This document shows positions 32,367 to 54,616 of a DNA stretch of 64,000 nucleotides, in pieces; position 1 is the stretch's first letter, and each line of letters begins with the position of its first letter. The notes beneath the pieces are model-generated. The model saw nothing but the letters and a program-made list of their open reading frames with translations. It made no database searches and had not been told where the DNA came from. The translations under genes were made by a program, and so were the position numbers. Source of the DNA: Gluconobacter cadivus. Lineage in GTDB: Bacteria; Pseudomonadota; Alphaproteobacteria; Acetobacterales; Acetobacteraceae. The stretch is from NCBI RefSeq assembly GCF_015244745.1, contig NZ_JABCQI010000007.1, positions 124,001 to 188,000 of the forward strand, given 5' to 3'.

Positions 32367-32368
32367 GT

Positions 32369-35123: not shown

Positions 35124-36344
35124 TCATATCTGCACGTCAAAGGTCGTCGTCCATTCCGATCGCTCACCAGCCTGGCTCAGGACCAGCGTCCCGCCATGTC
35201 CCCTGACAATCTGGCGCGCCAGAGGCAGTCCGATCCCGTTGCCGCCCGCCTTGAACGAGACAAACGGCTCGAAAACCTGTTCCCGCAGCGCTGCATCAAT
35301 CCCTGAACCATTATCGCGGATTCTGATCAGAACGGCCCGATCGGCCATTTCAACAGCCAGTTGCACTCGGGGCGCAGACTGTCCCAGAGCAGCCTCGGCC
35401 CCGTTGTTCAGAAGATTCATAAGCGCCTGTTCCATCTGCGCGGCATCAAGTCGGACCATGAGCCGCCCCGCAGGCACCACCACGTCCAGCACCACGCGCG
35501 TACCCCAGCGCGCCATAAAAAGCGTGACGATTTCACGCACCAGCGCGCCAAGGTCTGCGGGCTTCAGATCCGGTCTGGGCAGACGCGCCAGATCGCGATA
35601 GCCGCGCACGAACCGATCCAGCCCCTCTGCACGACGCCGGATCGTTCCAAGCGCCTCCGCAATCAATGGCCCTGTCTCATGGCGGCTGTCTGCCGGTCCC
35701 CGACATTCGGAAAACAGCTCTTCGGCGGTGGCGGACAGGGAAACGATTGGTGTGAGGGAATTCATGATCTCGTGGCTGAGAACCTGAAGAAGACCACGCA
35801 GCGCCTGAGCTTCCGCAGCGTTCAACCCGGCCTCGATGTCCGTCAGCGCCAGATACGCAACGATCCCTCCTGCCCCGGCACCTTTTCCGACCGACAGCGC
35901 ATAGACCCGCGGCGCACTCCCGACGGATGGCAGACGGATCAGGCGTTTTTCCGGCCCCGACGCCTCCTTCTCCAAAGCCGCAATGAGAGCTTCGGGTGGC
36001 TCACGCAGGACCCCTTCCGTCATGAACAGACGCCGCGCCGCACGATTGGCGGCATGCAGGGTCCCATCCACATACTGGACCAGAAGCGGCACAGGCGCAT
36101 GATCGAGCAGCGCCCGGTTCCGCAGCTTTTCCCGATCCACGGGACGCACGACGGAAGGCTCGTGCCGTTTCAGACGCCGCGTCACCCGGATCTGCGCCGC
36201 AACGACAGACCCTGCACAGATCAGCCCGACGCATATGCACAGCAGGGCCGTCGCATAAAACCCCCGCTGCCAGGCCGGAATGGTCAGCAGACAGGCCGCC
36301 ACGATGCCGCAAAGCCGCAGGAACGTCTCAGCTACGACCCGCAT
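35124..36344 (-). CDS. Sensor histidine kinase of efflux locus (NtrY-like)
   Basis: A 406-residue membrane kinase. Two hydrophobic helices (about 8-24 and 30-50) enclose only a very short external loop, so it may sense within the membrane. A PAS-like segment follows (about 78-170). The phospho-acceptor His is H191 in VLSHEIMNSLTPI, an NtrB/NtrY-type H-box. The ATPase domain has NLLNNGAEAAL (N box), IRIRDNGSGID (G1) and GGNGIGLPLARQIVRGHGG (G2). Its ATG follows the regulator's stop directly (TAG ATG), so the two are one operon. It presumably phosphorylates that regulator to control the adjacent exporter. Confidence 0.88.
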   Translation of the reverse strand: MRVVAETFLRLCGIVAACLLTIPAWQRGFYATALLCICVGLICAGSVVAAQIRVTRRLKRHEPSVVRPVDREKLRNRALLDHAPVPLLVQYVDGTLHAANRAARRLFMTEGVLREPPEALIAALEKEASGPEKRLIRLPSVGSAPRVYALSVGKGAGAGGIVAYLALTDIEAGLNAAEAQALRGLLQVLSHEIMNSLTPIVSLSATAEELFSECRGPADSRHETGPLIAEALGTIRRRAEGLDRFVRGYRDLARLPRPDLKPADLGALVREIVTLFMARWGTRVVLDVVVPAGRLMVRLDAAQMEQALMNLLNNGAEAALGQSAPRVQLAVEMADRAVLIRIRDNGSGIDAALREQVFEPFVSFKAGGNGIGLPLARQIVRGHGGTLVLSQAGERSEWTTTFDVQI

Positions 36345-37576: not shown

Positions 37577-37619
37577 GGGTGTCCGGTTCCGGACACCCTG
37601 TTCGAAACCGGACATACCC
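37577..37619. promoter_or_regulatory. Perfect palindrome and extra half-site, likely response-regulator operator
   Basis: GGGTGTCCGG (37577-37586) and CCGGACACCC (37589-37598) form 10-bp perfect arms around TT. A further copy of the right arm, CCGGACA followed by taCCC, lies at 37608-37619, so there is a palindrome plus a spaced half-site. The location between the divergent regulator and adaptor genes suits control of both directions. A TATCGTTATTTA stretch at 37639-37650 lies further on. Confidence 0.65.
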
Positions 37620-37710
37620 GTAAAATCAGAATAAATTTTATCGTTATTTATCAATGAGTTAAATTCCATTTCCGCCATGATACACTGTTTGCCAACAGGA
37701 GAAACAGTGC

Positions 37711-39056: not shown

Positions 39057-39740
39057 ATGCTGATCGAACTCTCGCACATCCAGCGCCTCTACCGCTCCGA
39101 CGAAGTGGAGACGACCGCTCTGCACGACATCGAACTCCAGATCGAAAAAGGCGAATTCGTCGCGATCATGGGGCCGTCGGGCTGCGGCAAGTCCACGCTG
39201 CTGAACATCCTCGGCACGATCGACCGCCCGACCGGGGGCTCATACCGCTTCGGTGAGCATGAACTGACGGCGATGAACGAGGCAGAACTGGCGAAATTCC
39301 GCCGCGAGCATCTGGGCTACGTGTTCCAGAGCTTCAACCTGATCGACGAACTGACGATCGAGGAGAATATCGAACTCGCCCTGATCTATCGCAACATGCC
39401 CAAAGCCGAACGGCAGAGCCGTGTGTCCCATGCCATGGACCATGTCGGCATCGCCCATCGTGCACGGCATTACCCGTCCCAGCTTTCCGGCGGTCAGCAG
39501 CAGCGCGCGGCCATCGCGCGCGCCATCGTGGGCGAACCGAGCCTGATCCTCGCCGACGAACCGACCGGCAATCTCGACACCGAAAACGGCGCACAGGTGA
39601 TGGACATCCTCCAGCGCCTGAACGACGAGGGCGCCACCATCATCATGGTCACGCACTCTCCAAGCCACGCCGACCTCGCCCGCCGCCGCATCGACATGCT
39701 CGACGGACAGGTCGTCGTCTCCGTCCGCAACGCGATCTGA
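39057..39740 (+). CDS. MacB/LolD-type ABC ATPase, only ATPase of the five-permease locus
   Basis: A 227-residue ATPase with Walker A GPSGCGKST near 41-49, Q-loop VFQSFNLIDEL, signature LSGGQQQRAAIARAI, Walker B LILADEPTGNLD and H-loop VTHSPSHADLA. It belongs to the MacB/LolD/FtsE group that couples to FtsX-fold permeases without substrate passage through the membrane. It lies 26 bp after the adaptor gene and 27 bp before the first permease. No other ATPase occurs up to 53.4 kb, so it must serve all five permeases. Confidence 0.92.
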   Translation: MLIELSHIQRLYRSDEVETTALHDIELQIEKGEFVAIMGPSGCGKSTLLNILGTIDRPTGGSYRFGEHELTAMNEAELAKFRREHLGYVFQSFNLIDELTIEENIELALIYRNMPKAERQSRVSHAMDHVGIAHRARHYPSQLSGGQQQRAAIARAIVGEPSLILADEPTGNLDTENGAQVMDILQRLNDEGATIIMVTHSPSHADLARRRIDMLDGQVVVSVRNAI

Positions 39741-39767
39741 AGCGACAGCAAGGGAGGAACGAGGGCC

Positions 39768-42212
39768 ATGAGAACGATGATGTCGGATTTCTGGCGACTG
39801 GCCGTGCGCTACAGGCTCTACACCGCCCTGAATGTGATCGGTCTTGGGTTGGGCGTGGCCACGTTTCTCACCCTGGCGCTGGTGGCGCGTTACGAACTGG
39901 GCTGGGACGGCTTTTACCGGCAATCGGCGTCGATCTACGAACTGCAGGCTGATTTCATGATCGGCAGCGGCACATTTCATATGGCCGCGCTTCATGATCC
40001 GATGCTTCCGGCCGTCCAAACCCGTATTCCCGGCCTGCAAGGCACGCGCCTTGAACAGATCTCCGCAGACCTGGTGGCGCCTTCGGACATTAGCAAAACG
40101 GTGCATTACGACCAGACGGTCAGCTTCGTCGATCCGAATTTCTTCGACCTTTTCGACCTGAAATTCACAGCCGGTTCGCCAGCCGTTCTCTCCTCGCCCG
40201 AAAACATCATCCTGTCGGCGACCATGGCGCGGCAGCTGTTTGGGGAAAAACCCGCGCTCGGCCAGACACTGGAGGTTACGCGTCATGGCAAGACTTCCGT
40301 CTATCGTGTCGCGGGAGTGCTTCGCGACCATCCGTCCAACACCACGATCCCGACCGATCTGATTGCCGCTATCCCGAAAACTGCTGCGGACCGCCCGTGC
40401 GACGGCTGGGACACGATGTGCGCGCAAACCTACGCGGTGCTGCCCACACCCGCCTTGCGCCAGTCTTTTCTGCAAAACGCCCATGACGTCCTGATGACCT
40501 CCCCGATGTCCCGCGCCATTGAGCAGAAAGATCCGGGGGGTGAAAAAATGACCCTCAAGATTGTTCCTCTCCCGCTCGTTCATTTCGGCTCCGATGGCGT
40601 GGCGGAGGACGGGGCATCACGCAGCGTGCTGTTCGCACTCGCCGCAATCGGCACCCTCTCCCTGCTCGCGGGAGCGATGAATTACGTCAATCTCGCCACC
40701 GCGCAGTCTCTGGGTCGGGCGCGGGAAGTGGCCATCCGCAAAGTTCTCGGCGCCTCCCACACCCGGCTGATGATCCGCTTTCTGGGGGAAACCCTCGTGC
40801 TGACGACGCTGGCGGCCATGCTGGGACTGATCCTGACGGAAATCGCGCTCCCGATGGTCGCCAGCCTCTCGGGCTGGGCCGTGGCGCTGGATTACGGCTG
40901 GACACTCCCCCTCCTCTGCGGCGTCATCGTCGTCCTCACGCTGGGAGCCGGCTTTTATCCCGCTTTCATGCTGTCCTCCTTTTCACCCGCACCGGTCCTC
41001 GCTTCCGCCCGCCTTCCGGCACAGGGGCGCTTCGGTGCACGGATCCGGCTCTTTCTGGTGGGGCTCCAGTTCGCATTCGCCGTGACGCTCGGGATCTGCA
41101 CCCTCGTCGTCAACGCGCAGGCGCTGCATCTGCGTCATCTGGACCGGGGCATGACGATCCCCGGCCTCGCCATTATCGCCACGGAAAACCTCACCGCGCT
41201 GGACAGGCAGCAGACCGCCATCGTGAACCTCCTGCGCGCCATGCCCGAAGTCACCGACCTGTCCGTCTCGGCGGGAGGGACACTCGGGCGCTACGACGTC
41301 GGGAGCGTCCACCGCGCACCCGGCCAGAAAGCCTTCATGGCGCAGACCGTCGCCCATGACGAAGCATTCTTCAGGACGTTCCGGCTGCACCTGCTCGCGG
41401 GACGCCTGACAACATCCGCCCACGCGACAGATGTCACACATACGAAAAACGGCAATCCGGACGTGCTGGCGCAGAACTTTGTCCTCAGCCGGGAAGCAAC
41501 GCGCAAGCTCGGTTTTTCCTCGCCGCAGGCCGCTCTGGGACAGACCTTCATGTTTGGTGACAGCCATATCGCCGAGAAACGCACGATTGTCGGTGTCGTC
41601 GAGGACGTCATTCTCAATTCCGGGCAGGACACCTTGCCTCCCCCGATCTACGAACTTGAAACAGGCCCGATCGAGCAGGGGATCATCGCGTTCCGGACCG
41701 CACCTGGTGCAATGCCCCGTGTTCTGGATGCACTGCGCAGGGCATGGCCGACACTGGCACCCGGCGTTCCGTTCGAGCCGCAGACCATGACCGAAATCAT
41801 CGCGGACTCAACCCGGGGCGATTTCGCACGCGGCCGTCTGTTCAGCATTGGCGCGGCCGTCGCCATCGCCATCGCCTGCCTCGGTCTGTACGGACTGGCG
41901 GCTTTCAATGCCGAACGCCGGATGCATGAAGTCGGCATCCGCAAGACACTGGGCGCCACGACCGCGCAGATCATGCGCCTGCTGCTGGGGCAGTTCCTGC
42001 GCCCTGTCCTGTACGCGAGCCTGATCGCCTGGCCTGTGGCCTGGCTGTTCATGCGGAACTGGCTCACGGGCTTCGACAACCCGGTCGCACTCACGCCTCT
42101 GTATTTCGTGCTCACCACGCTGCTCGCCGCTTTGCTGTGTGCGCTGACAATCTTCGGCCGGACCTTCGGCCTCGCCCGGGCCGAACCCGCCCGTGCCCTT
42201 CGCGCGGAGTGA
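39768..42212 (+). CDS. FtsX/MacB-type ABC permease 1 (duplicated module)
   Basis: An 814-residue permease with two repeats of periplasmic MacB_PCD-like domain plus FtsX-like membrane domain. Helix 1 is in NVIGLGLGVATFLTLALVARYE. A first periplasmic domain is followed by three helices with the coupling motif ARREVAIRKVLGAS-like (REVAIRKVLGAS near 325). A second periplasmic domain follows, and a C-terminal three-helix set carries EVGIRKTLGATTAQIMRLLLGQFLRPV. Between EIALP and FYPA there are 33 residues, as in permeases 2, 4 and 5. It ends ARAEPARALRAE, a tail repeated in permeases 2 and 3. It forms a mechanotransmission-type exporter with the single ATPase. Confidence 0.9.
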   Translation: MRTMMSDFWRLAVRYRLYTALNVIGLGLGVATFLTLALVARYELGWDGFYRQSASIYELQADFMIGSGTFHMAALHDPMLPAVQTRIPGLQGTRLEQISADLVAPSDISKTVHYDQTVSFVDPNFFDLFDLKFTAGSPAVLSSPENIILSATMARQLFGEKPALGQTLEVTRHGKTSVYRVAGVLRDHPSNTTIPTDLIAAIPKTAADRPCDGWDTMCAQTYAVLPTPALRQSFLQNAHDVLMTSPMSRAIEQKDPGGEKMTLKIVPLPLVHFGSDGVAEDGASRSVLFALAAIGTLSLLAGAMNYVNLATAQSLGRAREVAIRKVLGASHTRLMIRFLGETLVLTTLAAMLGLILTEIALPMVASLSGWAVALDYGWTLPLLCGVIVVLTLGAGFYPAFMLSSFSPAPVLASARLPAQGRFGARIRLFLVGLQFAFAVTLGICTLVVNAQALHLRHLDRGMTIPGLAIIATENLTALDRQQTAIVNLLRAMPEVTDLSVSAGGTLGRYDVGSVHRAPGQKAFMAQTVAHDEAFFRTFRLHLLAGRLTTSAHATDVTHTKNGNPDVLAQNFVLSREATRKLGFSSPQAALGQTFMFGDSHIAEKRTIVGVVEDVILNSGQDTLPPPIYELETGPIEQGIIAFRTAPGAMPRVLDALRRAWPTLAPGVPFEPQTMTEIIADSTRGDFARGRLFSIGAAVAIAIACLGLYGLAAFNAERRMHEVGIRKTLGATTAQIMRLLLGQFLRPVLYASLIAWPVAWLFMRNWLTGFDNPVALTPLYFVLTTLLAALLCALTIFGRTFGLARAEPARALRAE

Positions 42213-42223
42213 CCGTCATGCTC
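42201..42223 (+). repeat. Permease junction repeat, copy 1
   Basis: The 23-base junction covering the end of permease 1, its stop and the start of permease 2 (ending ACCGTCATGCTC) recurs at 44636-44658 with one mismatch. It contains the ribosome-binding GGAG. Confidence 0.7.
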
Positions 42224-44647
42224 TCCCGATACGTCTCTCCTGTTTTCACGGCGTTCTTTCGCCAGATGCGCCATCATCGGCTCTATACGGCCATCAACAT
42301 CGCAGGACTGGCCCTTGGGCTTGCGACCTGCCTCACCTTTGGGCTGATCGTCCGCTACGAATTCACGTTCGACCGGTGGCTCACCGATTCAGGCGACATC
42401 TATCGACTGGATGCGGTGAATGCGTCCGGCGGGAAACCGGCGGAAATCGCGGATGCCCCGTTCCGGGTTTACGACGCGCTCCGGACAGCTTTCCCTGAAA
42501 TCACACATGCCACGCGCATCCGCCCCGACAATATTTCCATTATCACACCGGACGATATCCACGCGTCCAACGCGCTCTATGTGGATCCCGATTTCTTCGC
42601 GACGCTGCCCTACCCGCTTCTGCGCGGCAATACGGCTTCCGCGCTGTCGGCACCAAACAGCATCGTTCTTTCGCAGGAACGCGCACTGGCCTATTTCCAT
42701 ACGATCGACGTGATCGGGCGCAGACTGACGGTCGATCACGACGGGCGCAAGGCGGACCTCACTGTAACCGGCGTTCTCGGCCCGGTCCCGGGCAATACGA
42801 CACTCAGACCCGACATGCTGATCCCGATCGACAGTGCAATGCTGGCCTCCCCGGCCTTCATGCAGTGGGGGATCGAGGGCGGATATCTCTTCTTTCGTCT
42901 CCGCAGCCCCTCCGACGCCAGACACATGCAGAATGCGATGGCGCAGTTTTCCAACGACCATGTGCCCGCACGGGTGCGGGAGAACGGGGAATTACGCGAC
43001 TGGCGGGTCCGCGAACTGCCGTCCCTGCATTTCCTTGACGGAACGCTGGGGGCCTCGGACGCCAGCCGGACCGGCGTCATCATGCTGGGGCTCATCGGCG
43101 TTCTGGCGCTCCTCTCCGCCCTTATCAACAAGATCAACCTGTCTGCCGCCCGTGGTCTGCTCCGTGCCCGCGAAGTGGCGATGCGCAAGACGCTGGGTGC
43201 CACACGACGCGATCTGATCGTCCAGTTCATGGGCGAGGCGATGCTGCTTGTCCTGTGCGCAGCCATCCCGGCCCTGGCCCTGATTGAAATCGCCATCCCG
43301 ACAGTCAACGCGCTGGGCGGATGGGATATCGTCATTCCCTATGGCCTTGTGCTGCCGACACTCCTGGCGCTGACGATCGTCGTGGGCCTGATGGCGGGCG
43401 CCTATCCGGCTCTGTGGCTTTCGTCCTACCAGCCCGCAAGAGTGCTTGCGGCCTCGCGCATGGCGACGATGGGCCGCCTTGGCGCCATCGTCCGTCTCGG
43501 ACTTGTGGTCGTTCAGTTCGGCTTTGCGATCGGGCTGAGTGCCTCAAGCGTGGTAATCCTGCGCCAGTCCGTTTTCGTGCGGGACATGAACCGCGGGTTC
43601 GAAAGCAGCGGGCTGGCCTTCATTCCGTTCATCGACAATGTCGGCCCCTCGGCCACACAACTGTCGCTCATGGATGCTTTCCGCAGCATTCCGGGTGTGA
43701 CGACGGTGTCCTATTTCTACACGATGCCGGGTAATTACGGCTTCTTCGCAGGTGATTATTTTTCGCCCGCAACCATGCCGGATCACCGCCCGCGGCTCGA
43801 ATGGCAGGATATCGGACGCGACTACTTTCAGCTCTTCGGAATGCACCTGATAGCGGGGCGTCTGTTCGACGACGCCCATGGCGAAGACGACCAGCAGAAA
43901 GGAAGCGGCATCCATTCAGCCATCATCGACGTCAGTTCCGCACGCGCACTGGGCTACACAACGCCAGAAGCCGCGTTGGGCCAGACGATCCGCAAGAATA
44001 CTGATCGTGCGTCATGGCGCATCATCGGCGTGGTAAATGATATCCGCCTGAAATCGGCACGCGAACAGAGCGTTCCCCATGTTTATTTCTACACGTCCTC
44101 CCCGTACCGTTTCACAAGCGCCGGCATCCGCTTTGAAAACCGTTCGAAACAGGACGTCAAAACCGCTCTTCAGGCGATCTGGCGGCAAAGAGCACCCGGT
44201 CTCGCATTTAACGCCGTTCTGGCCACCGATCTGCTGTCCGGTGACTATCGTGACGACGAACGGCGCGGCGAGCTTCTGGCCATCGGCGCGGGCATTGCCA
44301 TCTTCATCGCGGTGATGGGCATGTACGCTCTCGCCTCCTTCACCGTCGCCCGCCGGATGCTTGAGGTCGGCATCCGCAAGACACTGGGCGCAACGACCGG
44401 CCGCGTTCTGGGCCTGCTGATGGGACAGTTTCTCAAGCCGGTTGTGGGAGCCGGGCTGATCGGCTGTGCCCTGGCCTGGATGATGATGCGGAACTGGCTG
44501 TCGGGCTTCGACGCACGGATTGCGCTCTCTCCGATTTATTTCGCCTCGGTTTTCGTGGCGGCGCTGTTTGTGGCCGCCCTGACCGTCCTGTTCCAGACCT
44601 TGCGCGTCGCCCGGGCCGAGCCTGCACGCGCCCTGCGCGCGGAGTAA
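42218..44647 (+). CDS. FtsX/MacB-type ABC permease 2
   Basis: An 809-residue paralogue of permease 1. The open frame continues back into permease 1, but the ATG at 42218 gives the family start MLSRYVSPVFTAFFRQMRHHRLYTAINIAGLALGLA. Its ribosome-binding GGAG is embedded in the last codons of permease 1 (GCGGAGTGA). It has REVAMRKTLGATRRDL and EVGIRKTLGATTGRVLGLLMGQFLKPV coupling segments. In the first membrane domain it reads SAARGLLRAREVA with Lys in INKINLS. The gap to the next permease is 5 bp, the same as before it. The differing periplasmic domains may give a different substrate preference. Confidence 0.9.
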   Translation: MLSRYVSPVFTAFFRQMRHHRLYTAINIAGLALGLATCLTFGLIVRYEFTFDRWLTDSGDIYRLDAVNASGGKPAEIADAPFRVYDALRTAFPEITHATRIRPDNISIITPDDIHASNALYVDPDFFATLPYPLLRGNTASALSAPNSIVLSQERALAYFHTIDVIGRRLTVDHDGRKADLTVTGVLGPVPGNTTLRPDMLIPIDSAMLASPAFMQWGIEGGYLFFRLRSPSDARHMQNAMAQFSNDHVPARVRENGELRDWRVRELPSLHFLDGTLGASDASRTGVIMLGLIGVLALLSALINKINLSAARGLLRAREVAMRKTLGATRRDLIVQFMGEAMLLVLCAAIPALALIEIAIPTVNALGGWDIVIPYGLVLPTLLALTIVVGLMAGAYPALWLSSYQPARVLAASRMATMGRLGAIVRLGLVVVQFGFAIGLSASSVVILRQSVFVRDMNRGFESSGLAFIPFIDNVGPSATQLSLMDAFRSIPGVTTVSYFYTMPGNYGFFAGDYFSPATMPDHRPRLEWQDIGRDYFQLFGMHLIAGRLFDDAHGEDDQQKGSGIHSAIIDVSSARALGYTTPEAALGQTIRKNTDRASWRIIGVVNDIRLKSAREQSVPHVYFYTSSPYRFTSAGIRFENRSKQDVKTALQAIWRQRAPGLAFNAVLATDLLSGDYRDDERRGELLAIGAGIAIFIAVMGMYALASFTVARRMLEVGIRKTLGATTGRVLGLLMGQFLKPVVGAGLIGCALAWMMMRNWLSGFDARIALSPIYFASVFVAALFVAALTVLFQTLRVARAEPARALRAE

Positions 44648-44658
44648 CCGTCATGCTC
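44636..44658 (+). repeat. Permease junction repeat, copy 2
   Basis: This is the same junction between permeases 2 and 3 (TAA in place of TGA). A more diverged third copy spans 47041-47063 between permeases 3 and 4. The copies mark how the genes were duplicated in tandem. Confidence 0.7.
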
Positions 44659-47052
44659 TTCACCATCCTGCGCAGCATCCTCCGTCAGGCCCGGCGTCAG
44701 CCGCTCTATCTGGCGCTCAACGTCCTCGGGCTGGGGCTCGGCATGGCGGTCTGCCTCGTGCTGACCCTTCAGGTCCGTTACGAATACAGCTTCAACGCGA
44801 CCATTCCCGACGCGGCGCATGTCCTTCGGCTGGACTCCCATCTCATGTTCCCGGGCAGCGCACCGCAGGAATATGCCGATGTCCCGTTCATCGCCTTTCC
44901 GTTCCTGCGCACCGATTTCCCGCAGATCGTCGATACGACGCGCTACGAAACGGAAGACTACCAGCTCCATAACGGCGACAGAAGCATCTCCGCCGATGCC
45001 GCCATGGTGGACCCGTCCTTTTTCAACGTCATCGCCCTCCCGCTTGAACACGGCGACCCGCGTTCAGCCCTGAGCAGGCCCGACGCCATCGTCCTGTCCG
45101 CCGATACGGCACAGGCGCTGTTTGGCACGACCGACGTGCTGGGACGCACGCTCACAACCGATCATGAAGGGCACCGCAGCAGTCAGACGGTCACAGGCGT
45201 ACTGGCGCGCGCGTCCGGTCCGGTCACGATCGCCCCGGACGCCCTCACGCCTTTCCCGTCCGATGAAATGCAGAAACCACAGTTCACACGCTGGGGTTCA
45301 AGCTCGGGCAATATCTTCCTTCATCTGCGGAGCGAAGCCGACCGTACCGCCATCGCAAGAAACCTGACCCGCTTCGTGATCGACCATGCGTCCGGTACGG
45401 CGAATGATGACAGCAGCGAGGGCGTCCACCCCGAACGGCGCTTCGCCCTGTCCCTCGTCAGTCTGCGCGAGACGCATTTCAATGACCTGCATGTCGTCGG
45501 CGGCGATGACGCGACCGATCGCTCGGTGGTGAATATTCTCGCACTGATCGGCGCCCTCGCGCTTCTTCTTGCCGTGCTCAACGCCATCAATCTCGCCACG
45601 GCCCGCTCCGGTCTGCGCGCGCGGGAAGTCGCCATCCGCAAGACGCTCGGCGCCACGCGAAAGGCACTGTTCGTCCAGTTCGTCGGCGAAGCGATCGCCA
45701 GTACCGCCATTGGCGGCGCACTCGCGCTCGCCCTGTGCGAGATCGCCCTGCCCTTCCTCCTCTGTGTCGTGCTGCTGACGGGGCTTGCCTGCGGGATCTA
45801 CCCCGCGCTCGTCCTGTCTTCCTACCAGCCCGCGCATGTTCTGGCGGCCACGCGCATGCCGTCTGGCGGACGCGGGGCAACGCGTCTGCGGAACGGTCTC
45901 GTCATCGTGCAGTTCGCCTTCGCAGTGGCCTTCGCCATCTGCACACTGGTGGTGAACCGGCAGGCCCATTTCATGCAGTCACAGGATCTGGGGTTCGCCC
46001 GTGACGGCATCCTGATCAGCTCCGACATCATGACGAGCGATATCGCAAAGCAACGGGCAATCCTTGAGGCCCTGCGCCATACGCCGGGTGTCGTCTCCGC
46101 ATCGCTGTCAGAGCTGACCCCGAACATCGACAACCGCCACCGCTTCAACGTGACGCCTGTCGGCCCCCATCGCGAAGACATTCATGTCCTCGGCGATACG
46201 GTCGTCGGAGACTACGCCACGACCTATCGCCCCCGCATGCTTGCAGGCCGGTGGTTCGACAACAGCCATGGCGAAGACGACAGCCCCGGTGATGACGCAT
46301 TCCACAAATCGCCCGGAAAGACATGGAACGTCGTCCTCAACCGCACGGCCGTGTCCCGGCTGGGCTTTGCCTCACCGGAAAGCGCCATAGGCACGCCCCT
46401 CAAAAGCGGTCCCGTCACGCTGCGGGTCATCGGCGTCATGGAAGACATGCGCTTCGTCTCCGCCCGCGATGATGTCTCCCCGCAGATTACGTTCAATTCA
46501 ACCGCCGCCCTCGATTATCCCCATGCGTCGGTCCGTTTCTCGGGCGTGCCCGAAAACATCATGAAAACGCGCCTCAAATCGGCCTGGGACCCGGTTTTCC
46601 CTGATGATCCGACCAGTTTCCGCACGGTGCAGGACCGTATGTCCACGTTCTACATCACGGAGCAGCGCCGGGGATGGCTGTTCTCCATCGCGTCCGGCAT
46701 CGCGATTTTCATCGCCTGTCTGGGCCTGTACGGTCTGGCGTCCTTCACGGCCCTGCGACGCACCCATGAAGTCGGAATCCGCAAGGCGCTCGGGGCCACG
46801 ACGCACAACGTGCTGACCCTCATGCTCGGCGATTTCCTGCGTCCCGTGCTGCTGGCCTGCATCATGGCGGCCTTTCCGGCGCTGTTCGTGATGCGCTCCT
46901 GGCTGTCCGGCTTCCACCAGCGCATCGCGCTCTCCTGGCTCGATTTCGCAGTCGTGGTCCTCGTGACCCTGCTTATCGCCGCCCTCACCGTCCTCGGACA
47001 GACCCTGCGCCTCGCCCGTGCCGAACCGGCCCGCGCGCTCAGAGCGGAGTAA
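44653..47052 (+). CDS. FtsX/MacB-type ABC permease 3, with 19-residue internal loss
   Basis: A 799-residue paralogue. It keeps the N-terminal helix (NVLGLGLGMAVCLVLTLQVRYEYS), both periplasmic domains and the coupling motifs REVAIRKTLGATRKAL and EVGIRKALGATTHNVLTLMLGDFLRPV. Between EIALP and YPAL, where permeases 1, 2, 4 and 5 each have 33 residues, it has only 14 (FLLCVVLLTGLACG). This exactly removes the external loop with the LSGW/DYG motif and part of the next helix (near base 45755). The frame is intact. The product may be misfolded, specialised or only structural. Confidence 0.88.
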   Translation: MLFTILRSILRQARRQPLYLALNVLGLGLGMAVCLVLTLQVRYEYSFNATIPDAAHVLRLDSHLMFPGSAPQEYADVPFIAFPFLRTDFPQIVDTTRYETEDYQLHNGDRSISADAAMVDPSFFNVIALPLEHGDPRSALSRPDAIVLSADTAQALFGTTDVLGRTLTTDHEGHRSSQTVTGVLARASGPVTIAPDALTPFPSDEMQKPQFTRWGSSSGNIFLHLRSEADRTAIARNLTRFVIDHASGTANDDSSEGVHPERRFALSLVSLRETHFNDLHVVGGDDATDRSVVNILALIGALALLLAVLNAINLATARSGLRAREVAIRKTLGATRKALFVQFVGEAIASTAIGGALALALCEIALPFLLCVVLLTGLACGIYPALVLSSYQPAHVLAATRMPSGGRGATRLRNGLVIVQFAFAVAFAICTLVVNRQAHFMQSQDLGFARDGILISSDIMTSDIAKQRAILEALRHTPGVVSASLSELTPNIDNRHRFNVTPVGPHREDIHVLGDTVVGDYATTYRPRMLAGRWFDNSHGEDDSPGDDAFHKSPGKTWNVVLNRTAVSRLGFASPESAIGTPLKSGPVTLRVIGVMEDMRFVSARDDVSPQITFNSTAALDYPHASVRFSGVPENIMKTRLKSAWDPVFPDDPTSFRTVQDRMSTFYITEQRRGWLFSIASGIAIFIACLGLYGLASFTALRRTHEVGIRKALGATTHNVLTLMLGDFLRPVLLACIMAAFPALFVMRSWLSGFHQRIALSWLDFAVVVLVTLLIAALTVLGQTLRLARAEPARALRAE

Positions 47053-47057
47053 ACGCC

Positions 47058-49493
47058 ATGCTTTCCCATATCGCCCTCGTTTTCTGGCGCGGCATTCTCC
47101 AGCGCCGCCTGTTCACGACCCTGAACGTGCTGGGCATGGCGCTCGGCATGGCGGCGTTCCTGACGCTTGCGCTGATCGTGCGTTACGAATTCACCTTCGA
47201 TCGCTGGATCCCCGATGCAGGGCATATCTACCGGCTGGATGCCTTCTCCGACGAGGAAGCCTCGGTCTCCAGCATCCGGCTGATCGATGCGCTCCGCGCA
47301 GAGCATCCGGACTGGAACGCGACCGCGATCCTGCGTGGCTTCTCCGGAGCGACCGTCCGCGTCAACGACAACGCCTGGGACGTCTTCATTGCCCGGACCG
47401 ATACCCACCTGTTCGATGTCTTCGCGCTCCCGCTGGCGGAGGGCGATCCGCGCACGGCCCTTGTTCCTGAAGGCGTGGTGCTGACACGAACGCAGGCGCG
47501 GCGTTTCTTCGGCCGGGATCACGATGTTCTGGGGAAGACGCTGGACATCACGCAGAAGGGCCGGACCGAACGGCTCCATGTCACCGGCGTCCTGAAGGAC
47601 CTGCCGCCGAACACCACGCCACAATTCGATCTTCTCGTCCCAACCTCCGCCTCCGAAATGCAGGTCGGGTCCTCGTGGGAAATGAGCGCAGCCGAGACCT
47701 GGGTGCGGGTTTCACCAGCCGTCGCATCCCGACTGCCCGATCTTCTCAGTGGTATCGTACAGCGTCATGCCGCCGGACTGTCATCGGAAGACGCCAAGGC
47801 GTTCAAAATTCGCGCACGGCCCCTCACGACACTCCATTTCTTCGACGCGACCATTGGCTGGGGCGGGGCGGATGAACGCCTGCCGATCATTCTCGGTGTC
47901 GTCGGGCTGCTCGCACTCGGGGCGGGTCTGGTCAATTTCGTCACGCTCTCCACGGCCCTTGCCGCAACCCGCGCGCGGGAAGTCGCAATGCGCAAGGTGC
48001 TGGGCGCCACAGTCCTGACACTCGGACTGTCTTTCACGGCGGAGGCCATCGGTCTGGCCCTGATCGCGGCCGTCATCGCGCTCGTCCTGACCGAACTGAG
48101 CCTCCCCTGGATCAGCACATTAAGCGGCTGGCCGGTCGGCCTCGATTTCGGTTTCGCCCTGCCCCTGCTGTTGGCTTCCGCAATCATCGGCGGGGCCTGC
48201 GCGGGGGCCTATCCGTCCTGGATGCTCTCGCGCTTCCGCCCGGCGGCTGTTCTCGCCTCGGCCCGGATGCCGGGAAGTGGGCGTCTTGGCAGCCGTCTGC
48301 GGGAGGGGCTGACCGTCGCTCAATTCGCCTTCGCCGTGACGCTGACGATCTGCACACTGGTCATCTGGCGTCAGACCCATCTGCTCCAGACGATGGATCG
48401 CGGTTTTCAGCAGTCCGGCCTTCTGATGGCCTATCTGCCGAACGAACAGGCCGAGCGCCTGCGCCAGCAACGCCTGAGCGATCTCGTCCGTGGCCTGCCC
48501 GGCGTCACCGGCGTCACGGTTGCGGACGACGCACCCGGCGGCGGAAGAGCGGGCATAACATTCGATACGACCCGTCCGGGACGTTCAGACCCACCGCCTC
48601 TGCTGGCCATAGTCGCGATGCAGCCCTCCACGCTGCCTGTCTGGGGCGCGCATCTCCTCGCCGGTCGCCTGTTCGACACGAGCCACGATTATGACAGCCG
48701 CGCCATGCCGGTCGCACCCTTCGACAGCTTTCTGGCCGGACAGAGCTGGACATTCGGCACCCACAGCGTCGTCCTCAACGAGTCCGCCATCCGCGCGCTC
48801 GGCTTTGCAGACGCTGCCAGCGCCATCGGAACGCCCATCACGCTGCACGGCAAGGACATCCAGACGATCATTGGCGTCGTCGCCGACATGCGGTTCAAAA
48901 ACAGCCGCGCCAGTGTCACGCCCGCACTGTATTACGCCGTATCCGGCCCGATCGGTTACGGCGTGCTCTCCGTCCGCTTCGACCACGCTCCCGAAAACGC
49001 CATCCGGACTGCGATCGCCACGGTGTGGAAGCAGGTCTATCCCGAAAGCGCACTGAACCTGCGCAGTGTCGGCGACATCATCGACGACGACACCCGGCCG
49101 GAAAAACAGCGTGGGACGCTGATGATCGTCGCGTCCTTCGTGACGCTGTCGATTTCCTGCATCGGTCTGTACGGCATCGCCGTGTTCAACGTGCGCCGCC
49201 GCCTGTTCGAAATCGGCGTCCGCAAAGTGCTCGGCGCAACGGCGCAACAGGTCACGCGGCTTTTAGTGCTGCAATTCCTGCGCCCCGTCCTGATCGCAAA
49301 CCTCATCGCCTGGCCGGTCGCCTGGTGGGTGATGCGGGGCTGGCTGTCCGGGTTCGACCGGCGCATCAGCCTCTCCCCGCTCTATTTCGCCCTGACCGCG
49401 CTGATCGTGCTGACGCTCGCCACACTCACCACCCTGCTCCAGATCCGCCGCGGCGCCCGCAGCGCGCCCGCCATCGCTCTCAGCTCCCAGTAA
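47058..49493 (+). CDS. FtsX/MacB-type ABC permease 4
   Basis: An 811-residue paralogue with NVLGMALGMAAFLTLALIVRYEFTFDRW at the N-terminus, the first coupling motif REVAMRKVLGATVLTL and the C-terminal EIGVRKVLGATAQQVTRLLVLQFLRPV. The 33-residue EIALP-equivalent to YPSW segment with LSGW is intact. The C-terminus RRGARSAPAIALSSQ is unlike the RAEPARALRAE tail of permeases 1-3, so it stands somewhat apart. It is preceded by the same 5-bp spacing after GCGGAGTAA, and is followed 31 bp later by the TolC-like gene. Confidence 0.9.
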   Translation: MLSHIALVFWRGILQRRLFTTLNVLGMALGMAAFLTLALIVRYEFTFDRWIPDAGHIYRLDAFSDEEASVSSIRLIDALRAEHPDWNATAILRGFSGATVRVNDNAWDVFIARTDTHLFDVFALPLAEGDPRTALVPEGVVLTRTQARRFFGRDHDVLGKTLDITQKGRTERLHVTGVLKDLPPNTTPQFDLLVPTSASEMQVGSSWEMSAAETWVRVSPAVASRLPDLLSGIVQRHAAGLSSEDAKAFKIRARPLTTLHFFDATIGWGGADERLPIILGVVGLLALGAGLVNFVTLSTALAATRAREVAMRKVLGATVLTLGLSFTAEAIGLALIAAVIALVLTELSLPWISTLSGWPVGLDFGFALPLLLASAIIGGACAGAYPSWMLSRFRPAAVLASARMPGSGRLGSRLREGLTVAQFAFAVTLTICTLVIWRQTHLLQTMDRGFQQSGLLMAYLPNEQAERLRQQRLSDLVRGLPGVTGVTVADDAPGGGRAGITFDTTRPGRSDPPPLLAIVAMQPSTLPVWGAHLLAGRLFDTSHDYDSRAMPVAPFDSFLAGQSWTFGTHSVVLNESAIRALGFADAASAIGTPITLHGKDIQTIIGVVADMRFKNSRASVTPALYYAVSGPIGYGVLSVRFDHAPENAIRTAIATVWKQVYPESALNLRSVGDIIDDDTRPEKQRGTLMIVASFVTLSISCIGLYGIAVFNVRRRLFEIGVRKVLGATAQQVTRLLVLQFLRPVLIANLIAWPVAWWVMRGWLSGFDRRISLSPLYFALTALIVLTLATLTTLLQIRRGARSAPAIALSSQ

Positions 49494-49524
49494 GCCCCGC
49501 GCTTCTTCCGGACCCGATACGCCC

Positions 49525-50937
49525 ATGACTTACCGTAAAGCCCTCATCCTCACCCTGCTGGCCTCGGTCCCCGCTCTTCTGCCCGCTCCGGCGGACGCCC
49601 TGACACTTCAGGAGGCGCTGGCACTTGCCTATCGCAGCAATCCAACGTTGCGGGGGGAACAGGCCAACCAGCGCGCCGTCACCGAAAACTCCGCACAAGC
49701 CCGGTCCGGCTGGCGACCGACCGTTCAGGTTAACATGGACGCCTCCTATCAGCAGGGACCCTATACCAGCGCCTTCGCCCTGGGGTCCTATACGTCCAAC
49801 TCCGCTGAAGGGTATGTCTCGGCCAAACAGACGCTCTATTCGTTCGGTCACGTCGCCAATCAGGTGCGCGCGGCGGATGCGCGCTCGCGAGCGGAGCTGC
49901 ACCAGTTGCGACTGACCGAGGCGCAGGTCTTCACCGGTGTGGTAACGGCCTATATGAACGTGTTGCGAGACCGGAACATTCTCGACGTGCGGCGGGCCGA
50001 TCTGGACATGCTCACCCGTCAGGTACAGCTCACAACCTCCCGCTACACCCTCGGCGGGCAGCCCTCCGAGCAGGTGACGCGCACAGATGTCGAACAGGCG
50101 GAAACGCGACGTCGTTCAGCGGAAGTCGCCGTCACACAGGCTCAGGCCACGCTCGCGGCCTCGGTTGCGCAGTTCCGCGCGGTCATCGGGACGGAGCCGG
50201 ACACACTGACGATGCCGAACGGCCTGCCCGGCCTACCCGCGACACTGGATCAGGCGCTGAGAACCGCACTGGCGCTCAATCCGCAGCTGATCCAGATGCA
50301 GGAAACCAAGAAAGCCACCGCCGCCGATATCGACACCGCACGCTCGCAATGGGGCCCTCAGATTCAGGTGCAAGGCACGTTCGGAACGATCGGCCCGGCC
50401 TCCCCGTTCCACGGCGACCAGTATGGCGAGCAGGTAACGGGCCTCGTCCAGCTCGTGCAGCCGATCTATAATGGCGATCTGTATAATTCGCAGATCCGTC
50501 AGGCCCGCAACAAGGACGAACAGGCCCGCGAGAGCGTCGAACTCGCCCGGCGCACCGCCTTGCAGGACGTGGCGACCAATTGGCACGCGGTCGAAAACGG
50601 GCTGCAAGCCATCCGCGCCGGGACGACGGAAGTCCGCTCCGGCGAGACTTCCCTCAAAGGCTATCAGATCGAATATGGCTACGGCCTACGCAGCACGACC
50701 GACGTGCTCTATGCCGATCAGAATCTGCGTTCGGCACAGGTGGAACTCGCCGGAAGCCGCCATGACACCATCGTCGCCGAAGCCACCCTCCTCGCCTCGA
50801 TGGGCCGTCTGCAGGCCGAAGACCTGTTGCCCAACCTTCCGCATTATGACGCCGCAGCGAAGCTCCAGCGCGCCCGCACGCGCGGCTGGGAGCCCCTTCA
50901 GGCGCCGATCTCCGCCATCGACAAAGCCGGCTGGTAA
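49525..50937 (+). CDS. TolC-type outer-membrane efflux protein
   Basis: A 470-residue outer-membrane factor with signal peptide (1-25, cut after ADA). LTLQEALALAYRSNPTLRGEQANQRAVTENSAQARSGWRPTV is the typical first TolC repeat; a second repeat begins at LDQALRTALALNPQLIQMQETKKATAADIDTARSQWGP. YGYGLRSTTDVLYADQNLRSAQVELAGSRHDTIVAEATLLASMG is the conserved C-terminal helix. It would complete a tripartite pump with the HlyD-type adaptor and MacB-type inner-membrane complexes. It lies between permeases 4 and 5. Confidence 0.92.
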   Translation: MTYRKALILTLLASVPALLPAPADALTLQEALALAYRSNPTLRGEQANQRAVTENSAQARSGWRPTVQVNMDASYQQGPYTSAFALGSYTSNSAEGYVSAKQTLYSFGHVANQVRAADARSRAELHQLRLTEAQVFTGVVTAYMNVLRDRNILDVRRADLDMLTRQVQLTTSRYTLGGQPSEQVTRTDVEQAETRRRSAEVAVTQAQATLAASVAQFRAVIGTEPDTLTMPNGLPGLPATLDQALRTALALNPQLIQMQETKKATAADIDTARSQWGPQIQVQGTFGTIGPASPFHGDQYGEQVTGLVQLVQPIYNGDLYNSQIRQARNKDEQARESVELARRTALQDVATNWHAVENGLQAIRAGTTEVRSGETSLKGYQIEYGYGLRSTTDVLYADQNLRSAQVELAGSRHDTIVAEATLLASMGRLQAEDLLPNLPHYDAAAKLQRARTRGWEPLQAPISAIDKAGW

Positions 50938-50947
50938 GGAAAAAACG

Positions 50948-53377
50948 ATGTTCGCAGAGACCTTCAGAGCAACCTGGCGCACCCTTACCGCCCAGAAACG
51001 CTATACGCTTCTCAATCTGGCGGGTCTGGCGCTCGGCATCGCCGTTTTCCTCACGATGGCGCTGATCGTGCGGTACGAAACCAGTTATGATTCCAGCGTT
51101 CCCAACGTCTCGCATCTCTATGCCGTGGACGAAGCCTTCCGCCCGGCCGGACACGCACCGGCCGACAGCGATTTCATCAGCTTCGTGCCTTTCCCGTTCC
51201 TGAAGCAGGACTTCCCGGAAATCAGCGCCGTCATCCGGATCATGCAGGAAACGCTCGTGGTGCGGGGCGGGGCACTCCTCGCGCAGGAAAAGGTGACGAT
51301 GACGGACCCGGAGTTCTTTTCCGTCTTCGCACTGCCCCTTCTCGCCGGAGACCGCGCCACCGCACTGGATGGCCCTGGGAAGGTCGTGATTTCAGCCGAT
51401 ATGGCGCGAAAATACTTTGGAACCGAACAGGCGCTGGGCAAGCGGCTGCGCATCGATAATGGCCAGACGGACGCGATCGTAACCGGTATTCTCGCCCCCC
51501 AGCCACCGAACCAGACGATGAAATTCGATCTGATCGAAGTTATTCCGACGAACTGGCTCTCCCGCTACGCCTTCACGAACTGGGGTTCGCTCTGGGGCAC
51601 GATCTGGCTCCGTATCGATGACCCGCGCGCCCTCCTGCGCATCCGCGCCGGTCTCGCGCACTATCCCTACACCCATCCCGGAAACTGGACGAAGGCTCTA
51701 CTTGAGGAAATGTTCGGGACCGGCGGACTGAACCTGCTGCCGCTGAAAGATTTTCATTTTCATGCGGCGGCCATCGGGGAAGGCGGCAACAGCCAGGCTC
51801 TCATCCGCATTCTGGGTCTGATTGGACTGGCTGGTCTGGCCACAGCCATTATCAACTATGTCAATCTGGCCACGGCACGCTCGGCCTTGCGTGCGCGTGA
51901 AGTGGCGGTGCGCAAGGTTCTAGGCGCGACACGTCCGCGCCTGATCGCGCAGTTCATGAGCGAAGCCTATCTAATGGTCATGATCGCTGCCGCTCTGGGC
52001 ACGGCTCTGACGGAGCTCGCCCTGCACTGGGTCAATCTGTGGGGCGGCTGGAGCTTGTCGATGGACTGGGGATTTGTCCTGTCGGTTGATGGGCTGGTCG
52101 TGCTGGGTGCCGGAACACTGGCAGGCTTCTATCCCGCTCTGGTCATTTCTGGCTTTCGTCCGGCTGCGGTTCTCGCCGCCAGCAAAACCCCCGCGGGCGG
52201 GCGGATCGAGAGCGGACTGCGCTCCCTTCTGGTCGTGCTGCAGTTCAGCTTCGCCATGACACTCGCAATCTGCAGCCTCGTCATGAGTCTTCAGGCGCGT
52301 CATGTCCGGACACTGGATCGTGGCATGACGCAGGACGGGCTGATCGTCATCCCTGCGCTCGATGATTCCTCCCTCCTCAATCGCCAGCGCGACATCATGG
52401 CGCGTCTGGCCCAGGTGCCGGGTGTGCGGATCGCAACGCGGTCAGACATTTATCCCTATAACGCCGTCAACAACGAAGACTGGCTACGCGTTGGCCATCC
52501 CGAAAAGCACTCGATGAACTGGGGACGCGCAACCGAAGGGTATTTCGACGCGATCGGCGCGCATCTTCTCGCGGGGCGGTTTTTCGATCCCCATCATGGG
52601 CAGGATTATCCCGCCAACCCGTTCACCGCCGGCAACGGCACCAGCGTCATCCTGACGCGCCTCGCCGCCGAACGCTTCGGGTTTGCGTCTCCGCAGACTG
52701 CCATCGGAAAAGATATTCAGGAATCAGGCGCGCCTCAGACCTATCATGTCATCGGCGTCATCGACGATATCCGGATCCATTCGGCAAATGCCCCCATGAA
52801 ACCGCTGCTGTTCACAGGGGCCTCTGGCTCGTTCCCCTATATCGGCGGCCTGATCCGCTATAACGGCGCGTCCGCGCAGATCGAAATGGAGCGCCTTGCA
52901 AAAGCCTGGGCCGAAATCGCACCGGACGTGGCTTTCTCTGCCCGGACAGCGTCAGACATTTTCGCCGAGGACTATCGTGCAGATGAAAGCCACGGCGCAC
53001 TCTTCGGTATCGGCTCGACGATCGCTATCGCAATTGCCTGTCTGGGCCTTTACGGCCTCTCGGCGTTCAATGTCTCAAGACGACGTCAGGAAATCGGCAT
53101 CCGCAAGGTCCTCGGTGCAGGAACGCGGGACGTGTTGTGGCTTCTCCTCACACAGTTTCTCCGTCCGGTCGCTTTCGCCAGCCTGATCGCATGGCCCGTC
53201 GCCTGGGGCCTCATGCGGATCTGGCTGTCCACATTCGATGACCGGATCAGTCTGACGCCCCTGCCCTTCCTCGCCGTTACGGCCGCGGCCATCTTCATCG
53301 CCGTCCTGACGATCATCACCCAGACCCGGCGCATCGCAACCCTGCCCCCCGCCACTGCCCTGCGCCAAAACGGATAA
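50948..53377 (+). CDS. FtsX/MacB-type ABC permease 5
   Basis: An 809-residue paralogue placed after the TolC gene. The open frame reaches back 159 codons into the TolC gene, but MFAETFRATWRTLTAQKRYTLLNLAGLALGIA is the family start, 10 bp after the TolC stop with AAGGAAAAAACG before it. Coupling motifs are REVAVRKVLGATRPRLIAQFMSEA and EIGIRKVLGAGTRDVLWLLLTQFLRPV. The 33-residue loop segment is intact (WGGW/DWG). The C-terminus differs from permeases 1-3. It probably shares the single ATPase encoded 11 kb upstream. Confidence 0.9.
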   Translation: MFAETFRATWRTLTAQKRYTLLNLAGLALGIAVFLTMALIVRYETSYDSSVPNVSHLYAVDEAFRPAGHAPADSDFISFVPFPFLKQDFPEISAVIRIMQETLVVRGGALLAQEKVTMTDPEFFSVFALPLLAGDRATALDGPGKVVISADMARKYFGTEQALGKRLRIDNGQTDAIVTGILAPQPPNQTMKFDLIEVIPTNWLSRYAFTNWGSLWGTIWLRIDDPRALLRIRAGLAHYPYTHPGNWTKALLEEMFGTGGLNLLPLKDFHFHAAAIGEGGNSQALIRILGLIGLAGLATAIINYVNLATARSALRAREVAVRKVLGATRPRLIAQFMSEAYLMVMIAAALGTALTELALHWVNLWGGWSLSMDWGFVLSVDGLVVLGAGTLAGFYPALVISGFRPAAVLAASKTPAGGRIESGLRSLLVVLQFSFAMTLAICSLVMSLQARHVRTLDRGMTQDGLIVIPALDDSSLLNRQRDIMARLAQVPGVRIATRSDIYPYNAVNNEDWLRVGHPEKHSMNWGRATEGYFDAIGAHLLAGRFFDPHHGQDYPANPFTAGNGTSVILTRLAAERFGFASPQTAIGKDIQESGAPQTYHVIGVIDDIRIHSANAPMKPLLFTGASGSFPYIGGLIRYNGASAQIEMERLAKAWAEIAPDVAFSARTASDIFAEDYRADESHGALFGIGSTIAIAIACLGLYGLSAFNVSRRRQEIGIRKVLGAGTRDVLWLLLTQFLRPVAFASLIAWPVAWGLMRIWLSTFDDRISLTPLPFLAVTAAAIFIAVLTIITQTRRIATLPPATALRQNG

Positions 53378-53602: not shown

Positions 53603-54586
53603 ATGTCTGCCGAATTTACGTTCTCTATCAAAAAAACCCGGTTTGACGAAGACTATACGCCTTCGGACGACACACGCCTGACAACCAATTTCGCCAATCT
53701 GGCCAGAGGTGAACACCGGCGGGAAAACCTGCAGAGAGTTCTGCAGATGATCGATAACCGCTTCAATTCCCTCGCGCATTGGGACAACCCCAAGGCAGAT
53801 CGCTATTCCATTGAGCTTGAAATCATTTCCATCGAAATGAACATCAATGCTGATGCAAAGCGTGACGTCTTTCCGCTCATTGAAATTCTCAACACGACCA
53901 TTGTCGACAAGGTTAAAAACGAGCGGATCCCGGGCCTCTCGGGAAACAGTTTTTCGTCCTATGTTCGCGATTATGATTTCAGCGTCCTGCTTCTGAAACA
54001 CAATCAGGGCCGTTCAGAGTTTCAGGTTCCCGATCAGTACGGCGATCTGCATGGCAATCTGTTCAAGGCGGCGATCCATTCGGCTGACTACAAAGCCCTG
54101 TTTGGCAAGGCACCCGTCATCTGCCTGAGCGTTTCCAGCAACAGAACCTATCACCGAACCGAAAACCAGCACCCGGTTCTGGGGACCGAATACGAACAGC
54201 GCGAATTTTCCCTGACCGATCAGTATTTCGGGAAAATGGGCATGAAAGTCCGGTATTTCATGCCCGCTTTTGCCACCGCGCCGCTGGCATTCTATTTCAT
54301 CGGCGATCTTCTGTCAGACTATTCCGATCTGGAACTGATCAGCACGATCAGCACGATGGAATCCTTCCAGAAAATCTACCGGCCGGAAATCTACAATGCC
54401 AATTCCCCGGCATCCGACTGCTATCAGCCCACCCTGAAGCATCAGGATTATTCGCTGACCCGCATCGTTTACGATCGTGAGGAGCGCAGCAGGCTGGCCG
54501 TTGAACAGGGCGTGTTCACGGAAGAACGTTTCATCAAGCCGTATCAGGACATTCTGGGACAGTGGTCTGCCCAGTTTCCCGCCTGA
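53603..54586 (+). CDS. mesX: MesX, DUF1852 partner of methionine synthase MesD
   Basis: A 327-residue protein of the DUF1852 family, recognised by MSAEFTFSIKKTRFDEDYTPSDDTRLTTNFANLARG, by HWDNPKADRYSIELEIISIEMNI and by the immediate downstream mesD. DUF1852 proteins (MesX) were shown genetically to be needed with MesD for a folate-independent, oxygen-dependent methionine synthesis; their biochemical role, perhaps supplying the methyl donor, is unknown. No signal peptide or membrane helix is seen. AAGGTG is 8 bases before the ATG, directly after a foldable leader. It is separated from mesD by 30 bp. Confidence 0.88.
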   Translation: MSAEFTFSIKKTRFDEDYTPSDDTRLTTNFANLARGEHRRENLQRVLQMIDNRFNSLAHWDNPKADRYSIELEIISIEMNINADAKRDVFPLIEILNTTIVDKVKNERIPGLSGNSFSSYVRDYDFSVLLLKHNQGRSEFQVPDQYGDLHGNLFKAAIHSADYKALFGKAPVICLSVSSNRTYHRTENQHPVLGTEYEQREFSLTDQYFGKMGMKVRYFMPAFATAPLAFYFIGDLLSDYSDLELISTISTMESFQKIYRPEIYNANSPASDCYQPTLKHQDYSLTRIVYDREERSRLAVEQGVFTEERFIKPYQDILGQWSAQFPA

Positions 54587-54616
54587 TCCATCAAAGACAC
54601 CAAGGCCGCAATCATC

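Follow-up and report, generated by a model that had tools for sequence, protein, structure and literature searches.

One ATPase, adaptor and TolC duct as a probable hub for exchangeable duplicated permeases in Gluconobacter cadivus

Introduction

What drives duplicated FtsX permeases that lack their own ATPase is, to our knowledge, an open question. It is raised in compact form by a 64,000-nucleotide stretch of Gluconobacter cadivus (assembly GCF_015244745.1, contig NZ_JABCQI010000007.1, positions 124,001 to 188,000; hereafter the window), in which five FtsX-type permeases (P1–P5) are encoded with one ATPase, one periplasmic adaptor and one TolC-family duct. Comparison with relatives leads us to consider it probable, on sequence grounds, that a single ATPase–adaptor–TolC hub serves exchangeable permeases as one regulon. 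Acetic acid bacteria offer a testable case in which lone permeases, one ATPase and one operator can be tied together. If the reading is true, the evolutionary unit of the exporter is the permease alone, and ATPase counts underestimate the number of pumps.

Results

One close ATPase and a variable number of permeases

Exactly one close ATPase is present in each of the 23 examined genomes that carry the system, versus one to six permeases. The operon ATPase, which matches 5xu1 and chains of MacB and LolD in phmmer searches, occurs in 12 of 26 genus genomes (the window's included), in one copy each and at 86–100% identity. In a family sample of 249 genomes, 16 have a permease at E ≤ 1e-80, five of them within the genus; four candidates per genome were scored in this search, and the remaining 11 genomes were recounted, with operon surroundings fetched for ten and the eleventh (G261) read by coordinates. 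All 11 have one ATPase at 75–93% identity, the next best being at most 47% identical. The window's genome (3.29 Mb, 32 contigs) holds MacB_PCD (E ≤ 0.001) only in P1–P5 and in a LolC/E-like frame of 426 residues on another contig, which has a neighboring ATPase. The next ATPases of this genome are 43% and 35% identical to that of the operon, and the 35% one, beside the 426-residue frame, is likely to be LolD. A search of the same genome for a dedicated permease ATPase elsewhere gave no MacB_PCD permease–ATPase pair except the LolC/E-like frame and its neighbor.

Permease number varies even within the genus. There are five in G000 and G011, four in G021 and in G017 (one of the latter inverted and distant), and three in G023, G001, G022 and G012; G020 has three intact and one broken, G014 two intact and one broken, G009 one and a fragment, and G002 one and unlinked fragments. 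The TolC gene of G012 is split into two frames (L051 8333–9765), its three permeases being open. Family operons contain four permeases in G127, three in G091, G221 and G074, two in G292 and G261 (the latter by coordinates) and one in G079, G128, G129, G149 and G176. Single-permease operons are seen in G002, G128, G129, G149 and G176, on an A. tropicalis plasmid and in S. parapaucimobilis, and no second permease is found genome-wide at E ≤ 1e-60 in G128, G129, G149 or G176. The existence of operons with one permease means that hetero-oligomeric assembly, which an earlier note on this DNA had suggested, is not required.

The permease array with one ATPase is not unique to the window's strain. 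A wider survey covered 79 genome loci from the best 80 of 514 relatives, and 14 of the 79 combine at least three full permeases with one ATPase in the main cluster, so that the array as such is not new. Examples are Sphingomonas pituitosa (3 permeases), Alpha proteobacterium AAP38 (6), Mucilaginibacter phyllosphaerae (4), Cecembia rubra (6) and a Cyclobacteriaceae genome (7), and one-ATPase arrays recur in Sphingomonadales, Bacteroidota and others. A further 51 loci have one to eight full permeases and no ATPase of at least 200 bits in the cluster, with many clusters reaching the edge of the fetched stretch. In Sphingomonas sanguinis (L069), a permease lies beside a kinase and a regulator in a cluster without adaptor, ATPase or TolC.

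Stand-alone permeases in relatives

Eight lone permeases occur in four genomes, on contigs C3 and C1 of G127, C1 and C12 of G091, C23 and C29 of G221, and C1 and C5 of G079. In the 7–15 kb fetched around them, models of the kinase, regulator, adaptor, ATPase and TolC are unmatched at E ≤ 1e-3; flanks are short in G079, where the C1 permease lies 1.1 kb from the contig start and the C5 permease is cut by the contig end. In the permease tree, G127 C3 falls inside the P5 group, whose members elsewhere lie past TolC, with G079 C5 at the base of that group. Three others (G127 C1, G221 C23 and G091 C12) are sister to the operon permease of G012 and G001, G079 C1 and G221 C29 are sister to P2, and G091 C1 is sister to P1. 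These positions imply at least two lineages that exist both in operons and detached.

Both coupling motifs are intact in six of the eight lone permeases. In the remaining two the second motif is a variant; a contig end truncates one of them, so that its first motif falls outside the visible sequence. The ratio of nonsynonymous to synonymous substitution rates (dN/dS) of the lone G221 C23 permease is 0.17 against both G091 C12 and G127 C1 (two pairs, one clade), indicating purifying selection. A permease separate from the operon is encoded in the more distant genome G049 too, and the 15 kb fetched around it contain no further component of the system.

The operator and its regulator

Upstream of the window's adaptor gene lies TGTCCGGTTCCGGACA, at 37580, followed by a second copy with one mismatch at 37599. 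This double palindrome, with a period of 19, recurs before the operons of relatives. With at most three mismatches allowed, it occurs in 20 of 23 system-bearing genomes and in none of 23 others that lack the system, the reversed-pattern control giving 0 of 46; it is absent within this limit from G012 (best match, five mismatches), G128 and G129. Twenty of its 24 places are at operons (19 fetched, G261 by coordinates) and two precede lone permeases (G091 C1 and G221 C29). The remaining two precede a small Cro/C1-type helix-turn-helix gene in two Gluconacetobacter genomes (L191 7345–7707 and L192 7332–7676, with a Pfam match for the L191 copy), a possible third kind of regulon member.

Upstream regions of the lone permeases were scanned with a weight matrix built from the operon sites. 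At six of the seven with a visible start region (L163, L165, L167, L178, L179 and L180, with start codons chosen), an exact or near copy of TGTCCGnnnnCGGACA stands 98–109 bp before the start codon, as against 96 bp at the window's operon. The exact 16-mer occurs genome-wide twice in G127, three times in G091 and four times in G221, and five of these nine sites are at operons and four before lone permeases. The exact 16-mers of G128, G129, G261 and G292, and one of two in G176 (C27), lie away from the operon. Two further exact copies were rejected as operators and taken as chance: the second one of the window's genome (C5), inside an open frame of 1080 codons, and that of G024, a genome without the system, inside a frame of 1213 codons.

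The regulator is predicted to bind this palindrome. None of the 12 genus regulators has a GAFTGA-like loop, nor do those of A. tropicalis and S. parapaucimobilis, and G049 has GAFTDA. Loss of the loop is not general in the regulators of related loci: in a set of 21 from other loci, which includes the A. tropicalis and S. parapaucimobilis proteins, 12 keep it (one as GAFTGA, 11 as GAFTDA or GSFTDA) and nine have neither form. No GG-N10-GC sigma-54 promoter is present in the gap upstream of the window's adaptor (both strands) or in those of three relatives (one strand). Because this motif is missing and the window's regulator has no GAFTGA-like loop, a sigma-54 promoter before the adaptor was rejected for this family, although the genome encodes sigma-54. 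With the loop absent from the regulator in 12 genus genomes, the protein most likely works at the palindrome without sigma-54.

Between operator and adaptor, window positions 37683–37709 read CACTGTTT...AGGAG...AAACAGTG, an inverted repeat that encloses the probable ribosome-binding site of the adaptor gene and is kept in 10 of 11 genus relatives checked. It is a possible translational control or promoter part.

Permease architecture and divergence

Each of P1–P5 contains MacB_PCD (PF12704) and FtsX (PF02687), both in two stretches and with whole-protein scores above the Pfam cut-offs, so that the doubled MacB/FtsX module described in the earlier note is found in all five. The permease profile matches MacB chains 5lil, 5nik and 5gko in the PDB (E 1e-19 to 3e-21). 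Hydropathy gives roughly a helix, a periplasmic domain and three helices, twice over, an approximate match to the four-helix modules of the type VII fold, with one expected helix of P1 below threshold. P2–P5 are 36–38% identical to P1. Averaged over the ten pairs, identity is 28–29% in the two periplasmic parts, 46–53% in the four membrane parts, and 72% and 62% in the two coupling motifs, which are intact throughout P1–P5.

The five permeases, old paralogues as judged by sequence, form separate supported clades across species in a tree of 41 permeases, and their relative order is constant wherever two or more of them share an operon. All five are under purifying selection, with dN/dS against relatives of 0.07–0.19 (two relatives compared for P1, three for P2, five for P3, one of them partial, five for P4 and four for P5), the ratios being rough in the several comparisons where dS exceeds 1. 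Periplasmic relative to membrane divergence has a mean ratio of 1.85 in the ten paralogue pairs of the window. Four sets of orthologues or near-orthologues, with 5, 3, 3 and 11 pairs, have means of 1.67, 1.24, 1.59 and 1.91, and three paralogue pairs of G049 have a mean of 1.98. The paralogue value resembles those of the ortholog sets, so the periplasmic domains are not specially diversified, and we rejected special diversification, a reading of the earlier note's interchangeable periplasmic domains, as not supported.

P3 lacks 57 bp in frame (19 residues) that its orthologues in G011 and G021 keep. Two similar 9-base stretches flank the site, and the deletion removes the beginning of the N module's last helix together with the loop that precedes it.

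A proposed mechanism and its rivals

We propose a tripartite exporter of the MacB kind (type VII ATP-binding cassette [ABC] transporter) whose inner-membrane part would be exchangeable. Each permease, of about 810 residues, would be a fused pseudo-dimer with two FtsX modules, two periplasmic domains and two coupling motifs for docking of the nucleotide-binding domain (NBD). With these features paired in one chain, one permease and two ATPase copies would form a complete inner-membrane unit, which would dock on the common adaptor and TolC. The kinase–regulator pair would turn on the operon via the double palindrome that precedes the adaptor gene; the regulator would also induce, in several relatives, unlinked permease genes that bear the palindrome. 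Permeases would alternate in using a single pool of ATPase, adaptor and TolC, or would compete for it, and each would expel its own periplasmic substrate by the MacB mechanotransmission stroke. In that model, as outlined in PMC5985334, ATP binding closes the periplasmic domains and pushes periplasmic substrate into the duct.

Sharing of the ATPase is favored by the presence of one close ATPase against one to six permeases and by lone permeases that carry the operon's palindrome. From these comparisons we infer that ATPase, adaptor and duct are physically shared by the permeases; each permease presumably has a different substrate, and the MacB-type stroke would apply to this exporter by analogy. 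The proposal of one ATPase for several complete permeases, already made in the earlier note, gains from the constant ATPase number in all 23 genomes, from purifying selection on the permeases and from the operator at stand-alone copies. To a more general form we give somewhat better than even chances: one ATPase–adaptor–TolC core would energize dispersed, freely gained and lost permeases, as a hub its spokes, linked solely by a common operator. Such an arrangement would also account for many of the duplicated permeases of Bacteroidota and Acidobacteria that lie away from any ATPase.

Several observations weigh against a shared hub. Lone permeases are absent from the genome of the window itself, and evidence for action in trans therefore comes from relatives; the window's P3, short of 19 residues, may be non-working. 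The lone G079 C1 permease (L170) has no palindrome by the weight matrix; a transposase piece (DDE_Tnp_1) lies just upstream of it (L170 646–1134) and may have replaced its control region. No palindrome is found in the 15 kb fetched around the lone permease of G049, and the operon of that genome is without the double form. Single exact palindromes also arise by chance: the 14 genus genomes that lack the system hold 11 sites, spread over nine of them, versus 9 for the reversed pattern, and several system-bearing genus genomes hold one or two extra exact 16-mers. As for the ATPase, the search of the window's genome does not exclude some distant ATPase serving a permease, ATPases of 33–47% identity exist in all 11 family genomes and could serve lone permeases, and G091 has an ATPase of 38% identity about 6 kb from its C1 lone permease, outside the fetched stretch.

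One rival reading takes the locus as an ordinary array, in which one permease (for example P3) works with the ATPase and the others run on other MacB/LolD-type ATPases or are unenergized. Of the permease types, only P3 occurs throughout the 12 system-bearing genus genomes, though in two frames in G020; other LolD-like ATPases exist; and the broken single permeases of G014, G020 and G009 suggest that individual permeases are dispensable. We nevertheless regard an ordinary array as unlikely, since purifying selection and intact coupling motifs extend to all five permeases, the operon's palindrome also stands at lone ones, and P3 itself has the 19-residue deletion in the window and its counterpart is broken in G020.

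The same palindrome would also suit a system in which some permeases are sensors. In BceAB–BceS, the kinase reads the state of the transporter, and by analogy the kinase here, almost without a periplasmic part (two N-terminal hydrophobic stretches and a short loop), could read the state of such permeases. The kinase, however, is present with single-permease operons too, and fetched operons with more permeases hold only one, which makes this reading distinctly improbable. Tight gene spacing and constant permease order would fit a hetero-oligomeric pump, in which at least two distinct permeases would have to join on a single ATPase pair, as MdtB and MdtC combine in the resistance-nodulation-division (RND) family. 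This arrangement appears very improbable in view of the single-permease operons listed above, the four genomes with no second permease genome-wide and the two modules already contained in each permease.

Comparison with known systems

The system has two hallmarks of the MacB family, or type VII ABC transporters: a permease with a MacB-like periplasmic core and FtsX, and a MacB/LolD-type NBD. As in MacAB–TolC, the window's operon encodes a MacB_PCD plus FtsX permease, a HlyD/MacA-type adaptor and TolC. In contrast to MacAB–TolC, the ATPase is a separate gene product of 227 residues, rather than an N-terminal NBD of the permease, two permease modules are fused per chain, and there are several permeases per ATPase. 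Among NCBIfam models, those of the darobactin exporter DarBCD (NF038008, NF038010, NF038007) come close: the ATPase scores best with DarD and the adaptor with DarC, and DarB is second best for each permease. All miss the equivalog cut-offs by a wide margin, however (DarB 40.1–58.3 against 700 bits, DarC 225.5 against 450, DarD 264.8 against 375).

The best NCBIfam model for all five permeases is ADOP (TIGR03434), which has the same doubled layout of about 800 residues. The name stands for "Acidobacterial duplicated orphan permease," defined by the lack of a nearby ATPase, and the orphan copies resemble the lone permeases of relatives. The window's permeases score 234.6–303.5 bits against a subfamily cut-off of 622.3 and, unlike ADOP, sit with an ATPase; no ATPase was found in the flanks fetched around the relatives' lone permeases, but for these an ATPase operon and a common palindrome are known. 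YbbA–YbbP of E. coli likewise pairs a fused permease with a separate ATPase, and YbbA is among the structure matches of the window's ATPase. The part of PMC5985334 on YbbP describes a fused two-module permease with two linking helices, a difference from the window's permeases, and mentions no permease array.

Shared ATPases are familiar from importers: FhuC serves several of them, and MsiK in Streptomyces is likewise a shared importer ATPase. For Staphylococcus aureus, the account of FhuC in PMC10147376 has one ATPase energizing permeases encoded elsewhere. Both differ from the present case, a tripartite exporter, in being importers without a common adaptor or duct. MdtABC, in the part of PMC8277102 that deals with it, places two different transporter genes in one tripartite system; it is an RND heterotrimer, whereas each permease here looks complete alone. 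In a literature search whose scope left out most subscription journals, and which is thus no proof of absence, we found no account of several MacB-type permeases or a tripartite exporter sharing one ATPase.

Locus layout and neighboring genes

The genes of the earlier note (five permeases, one ATPase, one adaptor and one TolC) are present in the stated place, and the two-component system that it described beside the pump is there too (Table 1). Of the five permeases, P1–P4 are in tandem; P5 lies past TolC. The permeases are 799–814 residues long. Kinase and regulator genes are divergent from the adaptor, and intergenic gaps of 5–31 bp from adaptor through P5 suit a single operon, adaptor–ATPase–P1–P4–TolC–P5.

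Table 1. Coordinates of the exporter locus in the window
Feature	Position	Strand	Remark
Sensor histidine kinase	35124..36344	-	two N-terminal hydrophobic stretches, short loop between
Response regulator, NtrC/NtrX-like, Fis-type helix-turn-helix	36345..37553	-	no GAFTGA-like loop
Double palindromic operator TGTCCGnnnnCGGACA-nnn-TGTyCGnnnnCGGACA	37580..37614	.	end 96 bp before adaptor start codon
Periplasmic adaptor, HlyD/MacA type, 439 aa	37711..39030	+	nearest named model DarC, below cut-off
ATPase, MacB/LolD/DarD type, 227 aa	39057..39740	+	sole close copy in genome
Permease P1, 814 aa	39768..42212	+	two MacB_PCD and two FtsX stretches
Permease P2, 809 aa from ATG	42218..44647	+	GTG at 42215 a possible alternative start
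Permease P3, 799 aa	44653..47052	+	without 19 residues present in orthologues (in-frame loss)
Permease P4, 811 aa	47058..49493	+	
TolC-family outer-membrane duct, 470 aa	49525..50937	+	
Permease P5, 809 aa	50948..53377	+	beyond TolC

On the A. tropicalis plasmid pAtBDGP1A, typed as conjugative, the single-permease system is followed by genes for a 78-residue peptide, with a signal-like start as judged by eye, and a radical S-adenosylmethionine (SAM) protein (L057 9379–19472). This system is a possible exporter of a modified peptide. At E ≤ 1e-10, the radical SAM gene is unmatched in the window's genome and matched once in the 26 genus genomes, and on this ground a ribosomally synthesized and post-translationally modified peptide was rejected as substrate for the window's system. 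In G001, a relative of the radical SAM gene (41% identity) lies beside genes for a 95-residue peptide, a fusion of Fic and 2-oxoglutarate-Fe(II) oxygenase, and a C39-peptidase ABC exporter (L064 5540–11736), a candidate for another peptide cluster.

Adjoining the kinase in the window, and outside the system, is a binding-protein-dependent ABC importer with two permeases and an ATPase (32009–35114), the latter with a weak CysA-type C-terminal match. After P5 come genes for a MesX-type putative oxygenase and a cobalamin-independent methionine synthase domain (53603–55645). Relatives of these genes adjoin the system in G021, on the same side, and in G017, on the kinase side, and a relative of the MesX-type oxygenase also lies beside the system in G001.

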